Below, piece by piece: positions 24,351 through 30,922 of a stretch of DNA of 57,587 bases. The notes beneath the pieces were generated by a model that saw only the letters and a program-made list of their open reading frames with translations, did not search any database and was not told where the DNA came from. The first letter of the stretch is position 1; every line of letters begins with the position of its first letter. This stretch comes from a virus, in the IMG/VR virus record IMGVR_UViG_3300020472_000029, positions 1 to 57,587 of that record. One strand, 5' to 3'. The position numbers and the translations under genes were made by a program.

Positions 24351-26120
24351 TTATGCGTTACCTAATTTACTTAACATGAAATCTTCCATTTGAACTCCCC
24401 CACCAGCGATAATTTGCATTGGAGGGATTCCTCCTTGATTACCACCACCACTAACCACAACAGCATTCTTAGATTGAGCTGGTGTGGTCTGTGAAATAAG
24501 GTATGTATTGTTATTTACAATACCACGTTTAGTCTTATTATAAGAAGGATACTGTTCTGGAACAGTCTGAGCAACTTGCATTGGAACAACTCCACTATTT
24601 TGATCTGGTAATGTAGTTGAAACATCAGCAGGAGGTAGGGAGGAATGAGGTGGATGAGGAGGACCAGACTTGGAATCTGGGGTCAAATGGCCAACCCAAG
24701 TATGACCAGTTCCAGGCAAAATACCACTGACACCCGATGCAGTATCTGCTGTCCTTCTGACATCAATTAAAGCAACTGGAACCTTAGTACCTTCTGGTAC
24801 AAATATATCTACTGATCTACCATCACCACTGTGATCATGTAGTTGAATACCTAATTTTATTAACTCAGTCATCTGTTCTCTACTCATTCCTTTTTCAAAT
24901 TTCTGACCATTTTCTAATTCTGTTGGTACACCTTGTGCTACTAACTTCTCTACTATAGGGAGAACATCTTTTATAACATCATTAGCAGTACCACTAAGAG
25001 TTTGGAAATGTCCATGAACCCATCCAGCAGCTTGATTAACATTACCTGTCTCACCAAAGGTTGCACCACCAGTACTCTGAGCTAAAAGACCACCCGTACC
25101 ACCAGTAGAAGATATCAATGTCTCATTAGAAGGAAAAACAGAACTTGTTGGTTGAAACGATCCAGCTGGATATCCAACTCTATCACCTATATTAACTTTA
25201 TTTCCATCACGATCATAATTATCTTCGTCGTGTTTTTTATTAGGATCATTTGATCTTTCTATATAATTTAATTTAATCTTAGAAAAGTTCTCTTCATCAA
25301 GAGCCCCATCAGCACGAGGGAACCCATCTTTATCAACTGTTCTTTCAGGTTCATTCTTTTTATCAAAATCAAACCAATTAAATGTAAGAGCATCTAAAGT
25401 ACCACCAGTAATTCTCTTAGTACCTTCCCACATATCTCTAGCTCTGTCACCAGACCATTCCCAGAAAGATGGTCCCATTGCTCTCATTAATATCCCACTA
25501 TCGACAAGTTGTTCTAGTTCTTTTGATAACTTATAGAACTTATCAACATCCAATTTCTCCTTCTTTGTTATATTATCATGCCCATCCTTCTTCATTAAAC
25601 CACCAGTAAGAGACTTAGGCTGATTTGACTTAACACTTGCAAGATTCTTTACAGTCTTATCAATATTAGTCTTTCTCTGTTCTGCAACATCATCAAAAGT
25701 TTTTTGTCCCTCCTCAGCTTTCTTCTTCTCAGCACTGAGTTCCTTCTTCATCTTATTCTTATCACCACCATATTGTTCTTGCAATACAGTCTCAGTTGTT
25801 CCTTTCGCTTCTGTTGGAGGAGCAAAAGCTAATGCTCCCATAGTAAGTAATGCACTACCAGCAGCTATAGGTAACATTTTATCCATGAAACCACCACCAA
25901 ATCCAGAAGAACCAGATCCTTTAGCACCTTGAAGTCTATCAAGACTCTTAATAAATGCTTTGGCTTTAAAAAAAGTAACAGGTTCTGGTAACTTTACCTT
26001 AGAGAAATCAGCTACCTTACCAGTAATAAACTTATTAAAGTCCTTTATACGATTGTCAGCCTTTTTGACAGTCTTCTTAACCTTCTTTGTAACCTTATCG
26101 ACAGAAATACCAGGCTTCAT
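24351..26120 (-). CDS. Tail tape-measure or hub-like virion protein
   Basis: A 589-residue protein, close in length to T4 gp29 (590), with a Lys-rich N terminus, a hydrophobic segment near residues 85-105 (MLPIAAGSALLTMGALAF) and helical low-complexity sequence. The C-terminal third contains a compact domain with QLHDHSGDGRSVDIFVPEG and GHTWVGHL, whose His/Asp pattern recalls metallopeptidases of tail-associated murein hydrolases (M15 or M23), although the spacing is not canonical. It overlaps the similar upstream gene by four bases and carries the TFN..DFD motif shared with it. Tape measure with a hydrolase tip is a guess. Confidence 0.5.
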   Translation of the reverse strand: MKPGISVDKVTKKVKKTVKKADNRIKDFNKFITGKVADFSKVKLPEPVTFFKAKAFIKSLDRLQGAKGSGSSGFGGGFMDKMLPIAAGSALLTMGALAFAPPTEAKGTTETVLQEQYGGDKNKMKKELSAEKKKAEEGQKTFDDVAEQRKTNIDKTVKNLASVKSNQPKSLTGGLMKKDGHDNITKKEKLDVDKFYKLSKELEQLVDSGILMRAMGPSFWEWSGDRARDMWEGTKRITGGTLDALTFNWFDFDKKNEPERTVDKDGFPRADGALDEENFSKIKLNYIERSNDPNKKHDEDNYDRDGNKVNIGDRVGYPAGSFQPTSSVFPSNETLISSTGGTGGLLAQSTGGATFGETGNVNQAAGWVHGHFQTLSGTANDVIKDVLPIVEKLVAQGVPTELENGQKFEKGMSREQMTELIKLGIQLHDHSGDGRSVDIFVPEGTKVPVALIDVRRTADTASGVSGILPGTGHTWVGHLTPDSKSGPPHPPHSSLPPADVSTTLPDQNSGVVPMQVAQTVPEQYPSYNKTKRGIVNNNTYLISQTTPAQSKNAVVVSGGGNQGGIPPMQIIAGGGVQMEDFMLSKLGNA

Positions 26121-27721
26121 AATGCATCCACAATGTTATACGTATTTTTGCTATACATGATAGCAATATTATTATTATCAAATGGTAGTAAGAATGGAAC
26201 TCTAGAAGAATTAGAAGTATCTTGAATTGATGCTATTGGTTGAGTTCCTTGTTTAATAGCTTGATTAGGATCAGTTCCGAGAGGAACAGGAATTATATTC
26301 TCATTCGTCTCTACATCTGTAGATGAATCTGCTTGTTGAGACACTTCAAGAGAATTATCCTTTCTTATATTAGAGTCACTTTTAGAAGGTTCTACTTTTG
26401 TTTGATTCTCTTTATCCAAATTCCAAGTATCACCAGTCATTCCATCAATGCCCTTAGCAATCCATTTCATAACACCTTTTGGTTTCTCACCTTCAGGTGT
26501 TTCTATATTAGTATTCTTCCCATCCCAATCATTCATATTAAATGTCATGAGATCTCCTATACCTTTTATCCATCTCATCGCCCCTGTAGCACCAGATTCG
26601 CCACGCTTACCTTTCATTCCTTCCTTACCATCAGTACCATCCTCTTTGGCAGGTTTAGTACTTAATACATTAGATGTTGTAAGGGGAGTTGATTTTTTAA
26701 CAGTACTTTCACCTGCACCACCTCCATCACCATGATCAGCAACCTTTACACCACCTGAACTTCCAGTTGTCTCAGGAATTACTTTTTCTTTTGTGGTAAC
26801 AGTACTATCTGTTTCTTGATGAGGTATTACCTGTAATTTCTGTACTGCGGCCGCAGATGTCTCATCCCTTGGTAAGATAACATTTAATTCTGCTGGTGCT
26901 TCTAGATCGCCTGGTATTAAGGCTGTCTGTGTTGTACCTGCTAAACTCTTCGGTTTTTCTTGTTCTTCTCCAGTTTCAGGTTTTACTTCATCTTCTGGTT
27001 TTTCCTTTCCTTTAGCAGCTTTATTTACCTGATCTTCAAAATTCCAAATAGTTTCCTGAAGAGTCTTAACTGCTTTATTAAATTTCTTTATTTCCTTCTT
27101 GTTTAATAATTCTGTACCTTCTACTGGTTCTATTGGTGTAACCTTACTTCCTGGCTTAACCTTTTGTGATTCTCTACCTTTCTTCAGTAATTTACTAACA
27201 CCCCAAGTTGTCAAAGCAATTAACCCAAGAGTTGCAGCACCCTTGAGAATATTCTGAATTAAACCACCTTTCTTCTTCTTAGGTTCCTTAGCACTCTCAG
27301 TCTTAGGAGCTAAATTTATCTTAGTAAGTTTCTTGAGAAGACTGACAAATATCTTCTTAGCCTTGTCAATAAACTTAAATATCTCTTGAAGTGGTTTCTT
27401 AAGAGATTGCAAACTCTTTGCAAATGCTTCCAACTGACCCAGACCACCTTTAAAGATCTTAGCCAACATGGCTCTGGGATCAAATGGTTGTACTGCTTTG
27501 GAAACCTTCTTAACTATTTTTGGTTGGAGTCTAGTAATCTGACTCTTAACTATCTTACGTACTTTAGTAATTGTTACTGGAGTACCATCATCCTCTGGAA
27601 GTTGTAACTTCTTAACAGATCCCTTAAGTACCGAATCCGCTCCTTTTACTTTTCCTTCAGCCTTAGGAGAACCCTTTGGTGAAGAAACCTTTTTTTTAAG
27701 TATGGGTGAAGCTACTACCAT
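26117..27721 (-). CDS. Tail tape-measure or hub-like virion protein
   Basis: A 534-residue protein, strongly basic at the N terminus, with a hydrophobic stretch near residues 150-180 (ILKGAATLGLIALTTWGV), Pro/Glu/Lys-rich linkers and a short collagen-like stretch (KEGMKGKRGESGATGAM). Two copies of a short motif (DLMTFNMNDWDGK and DGMTGDTWNLDKE) match a segment of the following gene, so both may descend from one ancestor. It starts one base after the gp51-like stop. Role in the tail is inferred from order. Confidence 0.5.
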   Translation of the reverse strand: MVVASPILKKKVSSPKGSPKAEGKVKGADSVLKGSVKKLQLPEDDGTPVTITKVRKIVKSQITRLQPKIVKKVSKAVQPFDPRAMLAKIFKGGLGQLEAFAKSLQSLKKPLQEIFKFIDKAKKIFVSLLKKLTKINLAPKTESAKEPKKKKGGLIQNILKGAATLGLIALTTWGVSKLLKKGRESQKVKPGSKVTPIEPVEGTELLNKKEIKKFNKAVKTLQETIWNFEDQVNKAAKGKEKPEDEVKPETGEEQEKPKSLAGTTQTALIPGDLEAPAELNVILPRDETSAAAVQKLQVIPHQETDSTVTTKEKVIPETTGSSGGVKVADHGDGGGAGESTVKKSTPLTTSNVLSTKPAKEDGTDGKEGMKGKRGESGATGAMRWIKGIGDLMTFNMNDWDGKNTNIETPEGEKPKGVMKWIAKGIDGMTGDTWNLDKENQTKVEPSKSDSNIRKDNSLEVSQQADSSTDVETNENIIPVPLGTDPNQAIKQGTQPIASIQDTSNSSRVPFLLPFDNNNIAIMYSKNTYNIVDAL

Positions 27722-27910
27722 CTATTGAGCCTGATTTGCTGCTTTTTGTTTGGCCTTTAAATTCTCTTCTTCAATATGTTGCCTAAGCAACCCAACATAG
27801 ATGTCCCGTTCCCACGAAACCATATTTTCAATTTCCGTCAGTGAATATTTATGGAACTGCATCAAAGCAAAATTGATTCGGAAGTATGTCTCAAGATCTA
27901 CATGAGCCAT
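27722..27910 (-). CDS. Small ORF after gp26; probable frameshift extension (gp51-position)
   Basis: A 62-residue helical ORF (YFRINFALMQFHKYSLTEIENM, read in parts, then WERDIYVGLLRQH). It occupies the place of T4 gene 51, which like gp26 acts in hub assembly. No ribosome binding site lies at a useful distance from its ATG at 27910, and the ATG sits in a hairpin. The ORF is exactly in the -1 frame of gp26 with no stop between them, and a slippery heptamer precedes the gp26 stop. It is therefore likely made as the tail of a gp26 fusion of about 304 residues, as tail-assembly chaperones are in many phages. Confidence 0.6.
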   Translation of the reverse strand: MAHVDLETYFRINFALMQFHKYSLTEIENMVSWERDIYVGLLRQHIEEENLKAKQKAANQAQ

Positions 27911-27940
27911 ACTTAGGCGAAAAAATCCGAGAGTCCCTCC
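27882..27940 (-). promoter_or_regulatory. Predicted -1 programmed ribosomal frameshift signal
   Basis: Three elements are arranged as in E. coli dnaX. A Shine-Dalgarno-like GGAGGG (27935-27940) is followed after nine bases by the heptamer T TTT TTC (27925-27919), in the correct phase for the gp26 frame (GAT TTT TTC GCC TAA). After four more bases comes a hairpin (27914-27882): AAGTATG pairs with CATACTT, then after a one-by-one mismatch CTCA pairs with TGAG. A -1 slip reads CGC CTA AGT ATG, entering the 62-residue ORF in frame. Confidence 0.7.
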
Positions 27941-28635
27941 AATGTGACAGGATTATCCTTACCAGTCTTAGGATTGGTAACAACAATATCATGAGTAAGT
28001 TTAGGCATAGTCTCAAAGAAGTTCTCAATCTTCTTGAATTGCTCTGAAGTAAGAGATTCAAGCCATTCTACAAGTTCCTTCTTAGTACATTCTTTAGCAG
28101 CCCAAACATTATCATCACTATAAACCATATCAATAGAAGATGCAATAATCTGGAAAGACTTTTCAACCCCTCCATCATCTTCATCATCAGAGAAATTATC
28201 CTCTAGGAATTGATTCAAAGAAGGATACTTCATCTTAAGAGTATATCCCTCACCCAATTGAATCTCTTGACTATGATTAGGATCGGTCTTAACCTCAACC
28301 TCATCAATGTTAATAAAAGCTGGGACTTGGGTTTCACCATCATCACCACAGGTAACAATAATTTCAATCTGTTCTCCAACAGACTTACCACGAACATTCA
28401 AAAAGATATATTCAATATCAAAACTAGGAAGAGTATCAACTTTGATTCCTCTAGTAATGATACAGTCTTTTAATACCTGTTTGACTGCGTTGGAAATTTG
28501 TTTTGGGTTCTGTGATTCTAAGGCTAGAATTAGAATCTTCTCTTCTCTAACTAAAAACGGTCTAAACTTAATTGTCTTTCCTGTAGAAGGTAAAGTCAAT
28601 TCATGTTGAGAAGTACTAATTTTTGGTAAAGGCAT
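27913..28635 (-). CDS. 26: Baseplate hub assembly protein gp26
   Basis: A 240-residue protein starting MPLPKISTSQHELTLPST, followed by KFRPFLVREEKILILALES, the recognisable N-terminal signature of the T4 gp26 family. A Cys-containing beta segment (IIVTCGDDGE) and an acidic DDEDDGG loop follow, then a helical C terminus. In T4, gp26 is needed for hub assembly and now regarded as a chaperone. It heads a leftward operon of tail genes, with a CTAAATA element 30 bases upstream. Its 3' end carries the frameshift signal described separately. Confidence 0.85.
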   Translation of the reverse strand: MPLPKISTSQHELTLPSTGKTIKFRPFLVREEKILILALESQNPKQISNAVKQVLKDCIITRGIKVDTLPSFDIEYIFLNVRGKSVGEQIEIIVTCGDDGETQVPAFINIDEVEVKTDPNHSQEIQLGEGYTLKMKYPSLNQFLEDNFSDDEDDGGVEKSFQIIASSIDMVYSDDNVWAAKECTKKELVEWLESLTSEQFKKIENFFETMPKLTHDIVVTNPKTGKDNPVTLEGLSDFFA

Positions 28636-28690: not shown

Positions 28691-28948
28691 TTATCCCTGT
28701 GCTCTATCACCTTTCTGTGTATATTCATCTTGTTTCGTAAAGAACTCACTCATGCTTGATTGACAATCAGGTGGTTCGGGGTACTTATATCCTTTCATCT
28801 TTCTCCATTTTCCATGCATTGCACCCATAGCCCATGACTGAGCAAGACTCCTAGGCCCGTTCTCAAGTAAATCTAGTTCATACCTACTAGAGGTATAACC
28901 CTTGTACTCTTCTCTCCAATTAGAATCGTCAAATGGTGGTTTGTTCAT
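28691..28948 (-). CDS. Conserved hypothetical phage protein
   Basis: An 85-residue protein from the ATG at 28948 (an in-frame ATG also exists at 28984). It has a charged, aromatic composition (NWREEYKGYTSSRYELDL, AMGAMHGKWRKMKGY) without membrane segments. It overlaps the DUF3293-like gene by about 20 bases. It resembles proteins I recall from cyanophage tail regions but has no function I can name. Confidence 0.5.
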   Translation of the reverse strand: MNKPPFDDSNWREEYKGYTSSRYELDLLENGPRSLAQSWAMGAMHGKWRKMKGYKYPEPPDCQSSMSEFFTKQDEYTQKGDRAQG

Positions 28949-29459
28949 AGGTGTAAGTCTTTTTCCCAACTTTAGTGTGTCCATATGGACCAGTTTTACC
29001 TGGCCTTACTTGTCCGAGTGAAGAACCTTTATTAGAAACTCCAGTTGAACTCTTTTTAGCTCTCTTGGCAGTAGGATGTAAAGTAGCTTTGCCTTTACCC
29101 TTCTTAGTGATTACTGAATCTTGGTTATATTCTTTACCAAGACGTTTCATCCGTTTCTTAAAGGTCTTATACTTTTTCTTAGGAGCATTAACAACAACAG
29201 ATGGTTCACTCACTGTTTTTTTGTTACCTTTATCATCCTTTTCAGGATATTCTCCTTTAACTTCTTTATATCCATAGCCGTGACTACGGATCTTCTTGCG
29301 TAACTCCTTGTTACTCTTTTTGTTCTCCTTATTTGACTTATCACCTCTTGTTGCAGTTAGAACTGCCGTGTTGCGACTCTTAGAATGAGAAACCACACGA
29401 GACATTCCACCCTCAGTAAGAGAGCTACATTCTAACACAAATTCGGTGAAGGTCTTCAT
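28929..29459 (-). CDS. Basic DUF3293-like protein
   Basis: A 176-residue, very basic protein. The central part (NKELRKKIRSHGYGYKEVKG, then EPSVVV, LGKEYNQDSVI) resembles the small DUF3293 family, which has the same order of a charged helix, a Gly-Tyr strand, ESxLV and QDxV. The last 50 residues are Lys/Gly-rich. The opening MKTFTEFVLE recalls the start of several T4-like capsid-associated proteins, but I infer no role from that. A late promoter-like element lies 31 bases upstream. Confidence 0.5.
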   Translation of the reverse strand: MKTFTEFVLECSSLTEGGMSRVVSHSKSRNTAVLTATRGDKSNKENKKSNKELRKKIRSHGYGYKEVKGEYPEKDDKGNKKTVSEPSVVVNAPKKKYKTFKKRMKRLGKEYNQDSVITKKGKGKATLHPTAKRAKKSSTGVSNKGSSLGQVRPGKTGPYGHTKVGKKTYTYEQTTI

Positions 29460-29489: not shown

Positions 29490-29499
29490 ATTATTTATT
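29490..29499 (-). promoter_or_regulatory. Putative late promoter -10 element
   Basis: AATAAATAAT on the minus strand, 31 bases ahead of the start at 29459 and overlapping the end of the gp54 gene. It fits the T4 late core and its spacing from the gene matches the other examples in this window. Confidence 0.45.
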
Positions 29500-30445
29500 T
29501 TAGACGGTTCTCATTGGCAGTGTTACTGTCAGTATTAACTCCATTGTTAGTAGAATTCAATGAATTATAAGCAGAACCACTTAAAATAGTCTGACCATTA
29601 TGAGTTGTACCTTGTGAATTAGCCCATGTACTATCACCCTTAAGATTATCAGGTTGTACAACAACGTACCTATCATATTTGAAATTAACAGTAACTTGAA
29701 GGACCTGAGCATCCCCATAAGATAACTGAATACTATCAACACTTTCTGGGAAAGCATTAACAAACAGATATGATAGTGGATTTGGTCTCTCTGGTGGGGT
29801 TAGTGGTGTTTTAACTCCAGGCCTATTAACCATTTTACCCATACTACCCACCATCAACCCTTCATCCTTAGATCTTGGACCAGCCCCTATATTCCTTTCA
29901 AATTTAGTAACAGTAATATTTCTCTTATAACTATGTGGATACCTAAATCTATGAAACCCCTGTCTATCCCTCTGATTGGCATATCCAATTGGGTTACCTT
30001 GAACATTTCTCATACCACCATTAGCAGCATATACAGGATTAATAAAATTAATCCATTCTTGAAATAATTTAAGAACTTGATAATCAGCTGAAAGATAAAA
30101 CTTTAAATTTAAATCAACATAAGCTCTTGTCTGTGCAAAGAATTCAGTTACACCCTGTCTTGCTCCAGATTCTTCAATTGTAGCTAAATTAGTACCAGGC
30201 AAACTTGCTTCTGAACATAAAAAATCAAACCTCGATGCAGGACTCTTATTGAATACTCCAGCAGTAACAAGCCAAGTGTTTAAATCAGTATTAGAATCAC
30301 CATTATTCTTGTCAGATAAACCCAATGACACCTTAAATGTATTGGATAAAGCAGGAGACCCTAAGAAATTCTGAAACGATTGAGCCGCTATCCCCTCTCC
30401 AGCACCATCATTGGTTATATTAGCGAGTAAGTTACTTTCTGCCAT
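29495..30445 (-). CDS. 54: Baseplate tail-tube initiator, gp54-like
   Basis: From the ATG at 30445 the protein is 316 residues, close to T4 gp54 (320). The frame stays open 59 codons upstream, but that extension crosses into the divergent gp4 gene and is hydrophobic noise. Conserved-looking segments are RFDFLCSEASLPGTNL and DVNLKFYLSADYQ-like strands, typical of tail-tube-fold proteins that start tube polymerisation on the baseplate. It is divergent from gp4, which is followed by gp48 and gp53, so the neighbouring T4 baseplate genes support the call. Confidence 0.65.
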   Translation of the reverse strand: MAESNLLANITNDGAGEGIAAQSFQNFLGSPALSNTFKVSLGLSDKNNGDSNTDLNTWLVTAGVFNKSPASRFDFLCSEASLPGTNLATIEESGARQGVTEFFAQTRAYVDLNLKFYLSADYQVLKLFQEWINFINPVYAANGGMRNVQGNPIGYANQRDRQGFHRFRYPHSYKRNITVTKFERNIGAGPRSKDEGLMVGSMGKMVNRPGVKTPLTPPERPNPLSYLFVNAFPESVDSIQLSYGDAQVLQVTVNFKYDRYVVVQPDNLKGDSTWANSQGTTHNGQTILSGSAYNSLNSTNNGVNTDSNTANENRLK

Positions 30446-30450
30446 GTGAT

Positions 30451-30458
30451 CTAAATAA
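30451..30458 (+). promoter_or_regulatory. Putative late promoter -10 element for gp4 operon
   Basis: CTAAATAA on the plus strand lies 27 bases before the gp4 ATG, in the short divergent gap between gp54 and gp4. It would drive the rightward gp4-gp48-gp53 operon. Confidence 0.5.
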
Positions 30459-30484
30459 TGCCATGATCCCCACATACTATGTAT

Positions 30485-30922
30485 ATGGCTTATAAGGGAA
30501 AATATAAACCAAGACACACCAAAAAGTATAAAGGAGACCCAACCCAGATAATTTATAGATCTCTCTGGGAAAGGAAATTCATGGAATACTGTGATCTGAA
30601 TGAGAGTATAAGTCAGTGGCAATCAGAAGAATTCTGGATTCCATATAAGAGTCCTCTGGATAACAAGATGCATAGGTACTTCCCAGACTTCTTTATTAAA
30701 TATAAGGACGCTAAAGGAAAGAAGAGGTCGGTTGTAATAGAAGTCAAACCAAAGAAACAACTATTGATGCCCAAAAGAAATCCCAAGAAGAGAACAAAAG
30801 CCTGGGCATATGAAGTACAAACATATGTTGTCAATCAAGCAAAATGGGAAGCAGCAAAGGATTACTGTGATAATAGAAAGTATGAGTTCAAAATCATGAC
30901 AGAGGATGACCTAGGGATATGA
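30485..30922 (+). CDS. 4: Head completion protein gp4
   Basis: A 145-residue protein beginning MAYKGKYKPRHTKKYKG; an ATG two codons earlier is less likely. The sequence YRSLWERKFMEYCD, the SQWQSEEFWIPY segment, HRYFPDFFIKYKD and VVIEVKPKKQ are diagnostic for the T4 gp4 family, which has a TnsA-like PD-(D/E)XK nuclease fold (PDF and EVK here). In T4 it completes DNA-filled heads before tail joining. It is first in a rightward operon and overlaps the next gene by four bases. Confidence 0.9.
   Translation: MAYKGKYKPRHTKKYKGDPTQIIYRSLWERKFMEYCDLNESISQWQSEEFWIPYKSPLDNKMHRYFPDFFIKYKDAKGKKRSVVIEVKPKKQLLMPKRNPKKRTKAWAYEVQTYVVNQAKWEAAKDYCDNRKYEFKIMTEDDLGI

Follow-up and report, generated by a model that had tools for sequence, protein, structure and literature searches.

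The gp26 gene of the marine T4-like virus analysed here is followed by a 62-codon ORF (ORF62), usually annotated as 'gp51'. The locus raises the question of whether ORF62 is translated as a protein of its own or as the C-terminal part of a longer protein that begins with gp26. The original prediction, made from the sequence of the whole stretch of 57,587 nucleotides (IMG/VR record IMGVR_UViG_3300020472_000029, hereafter the window), placed a dnaX-like −1 frameshift signal at the 3′ end of gp26. In E. coli dnaX an upstream Shine-Dalgarno (SD) sequence, a tandem-slip heptamer and a downstream hairpin make up the signal. The gp26 signal has the same layout, but the heptamer is T_TTT_TTC instead of A_AAA_AAG, and the frameshift, which in dnaX gives the shorter product, would give the longer one in gp26. 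All elements of the predicted signal were found on the minus strand exactly as described, to the base:

27913..28635, minus strand: gp26 gene, 240 aa, proposed short form (TAC-N)
27935..27940, minus strand: GGAGGG, internal SD-like stimulator, 9 nt 5′ of the heptamer
27934-27926, minus strand: nine-base spacer between GGAGGG and the heptamer
27919..27925, minus strand: slippery heptamer T_TTT_TTC, proposed site of a tandem −1 slip of the P- and A-site tRNAs
27918-27915, minus strand: GCCT, four-base spacer between heptamer and hairpin
27913..27915, minus strand: TAA stop codon of gp26, end of the short form
27882..27914, minus strand: downstream hairpin, 7 bp + 1x1 mismatch + 4 bp (AAGTATGgCTCA / TGAGaCATACTT)
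27722..27925, minus strand: −1 frame extension, FFRLSM + ORF62, C-terminal domain of the proposed long form (TAC-NC)
27722..27910, minus strand: ORF62, usual annotation 'gp51', 62 codons, ATG (27910-27908) inside the hairpin
26117..27721, minus strand: next gene, 534 aa, directly after the ORF62 stop; by its position a candidate tape-measure or hub gene

The 3′ end of gp26 reads TTG GAG GGA CTC TCG GAT TTT TTC GCC TAA GT ATG. The zero-frame codons at the heptamer are GAT TTT TTC, the phase needed for a tandem −1 slip. Reading on in the −1 frame gives FFRLSM and the entire ORF62 without an intervening stop, a product of 304 aa, in agreement with the predicted length of about 304 residues. The hairpin (AAGTATG-g-CTCA...TGAG-a-CATACTT) has an MFE of -10.9 kcal/mol (z -2.0) and contains the ATG of ORF62, as had been foreseen. 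Among the 55 main ORFs of the window only gp26 has an X_XXY_YYZ motif within five codons of the stop together with a −1 frame open for at least 40 codons; for the final five codons of all window ORFs taken together, the expectation is 0.31 TTTTTTN heptamers. The match to the frameshift layout is far beyond chance.

The original prediction had also described ORF62 as lacking a usable ribosome binding site. The ATG is indeed without an SD sequence, but the observation does not discriminate, as gp26 and the following ORF lack one as well, and it was dropped as an argument for frameshifting. With the distant GGAGGG set aside, no clear SD sequence was seen in the 24 bases preceding the start codons at 28635, 27910 and 27721 (minus strand; gp26, ORF62 and the 534-aa ORF, respectively).

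The gene lies in a tail gene cluster. gp26 matches PF12322 (E 3.7e-74) and the baseplate hub family phrog_150 (E 1.1e-78), and a tail tube protein gene is found upstream (29495-30622, phrog_45, E 7e-37). An ORF of 176 aa, also upstream of gp26 (28929-29459, minus strand), matches the S-adenosylmethionine lyase family PF23780 (E 1.1e-15), an unusual find among tail genes, and shares part of its length with a 97-aa ORF (28691-28984, phrog_16908). On the other side, an ORF of 589 aa (24351-26120, minus strand) separates the 534-aa ORF from the gp27-like gene; it matches phrog_34252 (endolysin) and phrog_11440 at approximately residues 345-539 and may be a hub protein that carries a lytic domain.

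Conservation was assessed in a set of 80 IMG/VR gp26 relatives (60-100% identity, identical and near-identical copies included). In all 80 the heptamer T_TTT_TTC occupied the same position, and no stop interrupted the −1 frame before that of gp51 or the end of the contig. With three further productive queries and with annotated phage records the set grew to 285 distinct junctions, 276 of which carried an in-phase T_TTT_TTN at the 3′ end of gp26, with C (214), A (41), T (20) or G (1) as last base. In all 276 the −1 frame was open. Its length from FF to the stop was 59-69 codons in the 272 junctions that end within the contig, with no short −1 frame among them. The taxa with the heptamer include Kyanoviridae, Eurybiavirus P-HM2, Methylophilales phage Melnitz-2, Caulobacter phage Cr30, Aeromonas phage PX29, Vibrio phage R10Z and Rhizobium phage I1_18; Vibrio phage F86, Sinorhizobium phage phiM9 (T_TTT_TTG), P-RSM1 and S-CAM4 were added later to the phages examined. 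The codon after the heptamer is variable among relatives, and so is the gp26 stop codon (TAA, TAG and TGA are all present).

The X_XXY_YYZ pattern of a −1 frameshift site is thus found in the zero frame at 27925-27919 of the window and in 276 distinct relatives, and conservation of the heptamer and of the frame relation, which the original prediction had offered as its own test, was borne out. In-frame stops between the ORFs or loss of the heptamer, either of which was to speak against the prediction, did not occur in the clade of the window, nor did FF without the T6 run. The T6-bearing set contained no FF encoded by TTC TTC and no closed −1 frame. The protein encoded by the −1 frame is conserved from its first residues (FFRxALxHxSLExYYxxNF), and F1, F2, F19, W38, E39 and Y43 are invariant in 52 relatives.

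Both stimulators were then compared among the relatives. Of 110 divergent representatives, 105 had an SD match of at least 4 nt just upstream of the heptamer; in background gp26 windows the share was 36%. The conserved Glu at this site is encoded by GAG in 64/100 cases (28 expected), and in PX29 and R10Z, which have Arg at that position, GAGG is kept. High-scoring stems near the heptamer occurred in 49% of unique downstream sequences and in 6.7% of codon-shuffled controls; the mean folding z was -1.9 downstream of the heptamer vs +0.2 to -0.9 in control windows. In the clade of the window 85% of the cells of the 12-pair stem are paired, with a covariation of 0.098 vs 0.048 after shuffling (0 of 500), and sliding the stem by 1-3 columns lowers pairing to 24-45%. 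A 5-bp stem in a second clade is 84.8% paired, with a covariation of 0.327 vs 0.239 (0 of 500), although a one-column slide retains much of the score (0.290). Because the shuffle control leaves the relatedness of the sequences in, we regard the covariation as supportive rather than as proof. An upstream SD-like element and enriched, covarying downstream structure thus accompany the heptamer. The expectation that relatives would share the stem stood in part: hairpins with covariation exist in two clades, but their position differs from clade to clade, and the same pairing is not kept throughout. A single hairpin register for all relatives was rejected, as registers 40 (the clade of the window), 33, 29 and 27 each dominate different clades; pooled across clades most columns show little covariation, and in some clades the hairpin is weak.

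Could the T run be kept merely by a required C-terminal Phe-Phe of gp26 and a T-rich codon usage, with no slippage? Phe-Phe is indeed frequent at the C-terminus of gp26, and 72% of Phe codons are TTT. Codon statistics on the 110 representatives (gp26 <80% identical) make this explanation scarcely credible. The first Phe is TTT in all 110 against the 72% background (log10 P -15.8, representatives taken as independent), and the codon preceding the heptamer has T as its last base in 110/110 against 70.6 expected from codon usage (log10 P -21.8, which treats representatives as independent and is only indicative), although its amino acid varies (Ser, Asp, Asn, Ala, Gly, Thr). Moreover, in 42 distinct loci the second zero-frame residue has changed from Phe to Leu (41 TTA and 1 TTG heptamers) with T6 and the −1 frame FF persisting, and phiM9, with TTG, likewise has Leu in the zero frame and keeps the heptamer. 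Nor would a need for Phe-Phe in gp26 account for a −1 frame that is open and conserved throughout. Slippage of RNA polymerase on T6, instead of the ribosome, is a very improbable cause of the frame change. Homopolymeric runs can cause transcriptional slippage, but six T is short for efficient slippage of this kind, which moreover needs neither the X_XXY_YYZ phase nor an SD-like element or a hairpin, all of which are kept.

A more serious competitor, if still an improbable one, is that ORF62 is a small gene in its own right, which ribosomes enter by termination-reinitiation at an ATG that lies 2 nt past the gp26 stop in the window, the heptamer being incidental. An ATG is present in the clade of the window, and TGATG or TAATG overlaps occur in Cr30, phiM9, R10Z, K474 and others. 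However, 131 of the 276 distinct junctions offer no ATG, GTG or TTG among codons 1-7 of the −1 frame, while conservation of the protein reaches up to the slip site; in these phages slippage is the only evident route to it. The SD-like element is 24 nt upstream of the ATG of ORF62, which is too far for initiation, and it is kept also in relatives where the ATG is absent. ORF62 by itself, moreover, corresponds only to about the last quarter of T4 gp51. The lack of a start codon has left its trace in annotation: the C-terminal gp51 frame is unannotated in S-SSM4, P-RSM1 and S-CAM4, where an apparent gap separates gp26 from the next gene. In P-HM2 the frame is annotated in truncated form. Separate initiation at the ATG in the window may nevertheless add some free C-domain.

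Some more distant junctions are built differently. The heptamer is absent in the sampled Ackermannviridae (Vi01, RCIP0012, JA15), in Vibrio phage K474 and in Pseudomonas phage Cygsa01. In JA15, K474 and Cygsa01 an ATG at or overlapping the gp26 stop is found instead; the junction is TAATG in the Limestonevirus JA15, and TAATT, with no obvious start, in Vi01 and RCIP0012. In Salmonella phage Vi01 (locus 1684-1850) and Klebsiella phage RCIP0012 (locus 1699-1865) the −1 frame behind gp26 encodes a gp51-like C-domain (NFHLIFEIDLLSYF...). No T6 heptamer and no ATG lead into it, and it might be expressed by initiation at a codon other than ATG or by a non-canonical slip at ATT TTC.

Programmed −1 ribosomal frameshifting, yielding the 240-aa gp26 and a 304-aa gp26-gp51 fusion as short and long tail assembly chaperones, is the reading that we favour, with a probability of about 0.92 as judged from the sequence evidence. 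Very probably, then, ribosomes of the window virus and of hundreds of its relatives slip one letter backward at the end of gp26 and make a short and a long protein from one message. Ribosomes translating gp26 would be slowed by the SD-like sequence and the hairpin, with UUU in the P site and UUC in the A site, and in a fraction of passages both tRNA-Phe would move back one base onto UUU UUU. The majority would terminate two codons further on and release the short chaperone; the remaining ribosomes would bypass the stop and make the fusion, the long chaperone, as the minority product. If the pair works like lambda G/GT, the short form in many copies and the long form in few might attach to the tape measure or hub proteins, and the C-domain of the long form might recruit tail tube or hub subunits. 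What the sequences show is the signal, its conservation and the relation of the fusion to T4 gp51 by homology; the slippage itself, its rate, the ratio of short to long protein and the chaperone role are inferred.

The nature of the two products was approached by comparison with phage T4. Residues 15-246 of T4 gp51 (249 aa) align to positions 23-284 of a profile of the predicted fusion, the C-domain past the junction included, and T4 gp26 (208 aa) aligns to the gp26 part only. T4 gp51 matches PF12322 (3.9e-52), phrog_150 (2.6e-84) and phrog_634 (1.2e-23); the −1 extension matches phrog_634 (E 1.4e-25) and the C-terminus of phrog_150. T4 gp51 is therefore a full-length homologue of the predicted fusion, and the ORF annotated as 'gp51' is only its C-terminal part. 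Provided that the frameshift occurs, the window virus, too, has the gp26-like N-domain and the gp51 C-domain in one chain. T4 genes 26 and 51 are paralogues, lie next to each other and are divergently transcribed. By this homology T4 encodes the short and the long form as adjacent divergent genes, the window phage by overlapping frames. Cyanophage gp51 was described in 2010 as having about 20% of the usual length, the first ~200 residues being absent, and gp51 as missing in Aeh1 (Sullivan et al. 2010, PMC3037559); the short and missing gp51 would be explained by the frameshift supplying the gp26 part. Assembly of T4 depends on gp51, which the particle itself does not contain, and both gp51 and gp26 are classed as chaperones of hub assembly (PMC3004832).

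Structure models gave a pLDDT of 87.7 for gp26 and 83.4 for the C-domain, modelled separately. In a fold search with gp26 the HK97 tail assembly chaperone gp13 (2ob9) had the highest probability among the PDB matches listed (0.57, E 1.5), with a TM-score by target of 0.42; the match is not significant, and membership of gp26 in the TAC fold family is only suggested by the model. The Pfam TAC families gave no sequence match to gp26, and the structure search with the C-domain model no significant match. Searches of NCBIfam and of PDB sequences returned nothing useful, and a scan with the Cr30 protein returned only itself and one relative. In Cr30 and RHph_I1_18 the annotated tape measure gene is located two genes after the gp51 frame. 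The best reading overall is that gp26 and the predicted fusion form a G/GT-type pair of tail assembly chaperones made by −1 frameshifting.

Frameshifts of this kind are known. In lambda G/GT, P2 E/E′, Mu and other tail assembly chaperone systems (PMC5009743) ribosomes slip by −1 close to the 3′ end of a tail-assembly gene that precedes the tape measure region, and the short and long products have a common N-terminus, as proposed here, but gp26 has no detected sequence homology to the Pfam TAC families. In Pseudomonas phage Adele and other Vandenendeviridae (PMC12846349) the TAC frameshift resembles the one proposed for gp26 in its conserved −1 frame, its T-rich slippery site and the contractile tail of the phage, and differs in its GTTTTT motif. 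T4 gp51 and gp26 correspond approximately end to end to the predicted fusion and to the short form, respectively, but they are two genes, and T4 needs no frameshift. The 2016 review calls G-T frameshifting widely conserved 'except T4' (PMC5009743).

The original prediction knew of no described case for gp26, but one has probably been described already, as judged from the title of Vladimirov et al. 2022 and from its citation in PMC12846349. By its title, that work identifies tail assembly chaperones of T4-like phages and proposes a mechanism other than frameshifting. The passage citing it in PMC12846349 (2025) credits it with the finding that TAC-N genes of T4-like phages carry poly-T −1 slippery sequences, and the PRFect papers (PMC10885494) with a short gene and a long fusion gene in some T4-like phages. 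From the title and these citations the proteins are very probably the gp26/fusion pair described here, and the frameshift in some T4-like phages was, on balance, probably already stated there. The kind of event is thus known; new here are its breadth, the start-less lineages, the heptamer variants and the explanation of the 'short gp51' noted in 2010.

A wider reading can be put forward tentatively, and we think it more probably wrong than right as a whole. In it frameshifting in gp26 would be the ancestral T4-like route to the long chaperone, often the sole route today, in cyanophages, KVP40-like vibriophages, PX29/Aeh1-like aeromonas phages, rhizobial phages and methylotroph phages. T4 gene 51 would be a derived duplication, and the 'short' and 'missing' gp51 of 2010 would be annotation artefacts. 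The full picture may be unpublished.

The favoured reading, a frameshift in gp26 of these phages, would already account for the ~20% length of cyanophage gp51 and its absence from Aeh1 (PMC3037559), and would correct two structural-gene annotations in hundreds of marine phage genomes. It would also place these T4-like phages under the G/GT frameshift rule from which the review (PMC5009743) excepts T4. Frameshift and gene duplication would then offer a natural comparison of two ways to set the ratio of the same two proteins.
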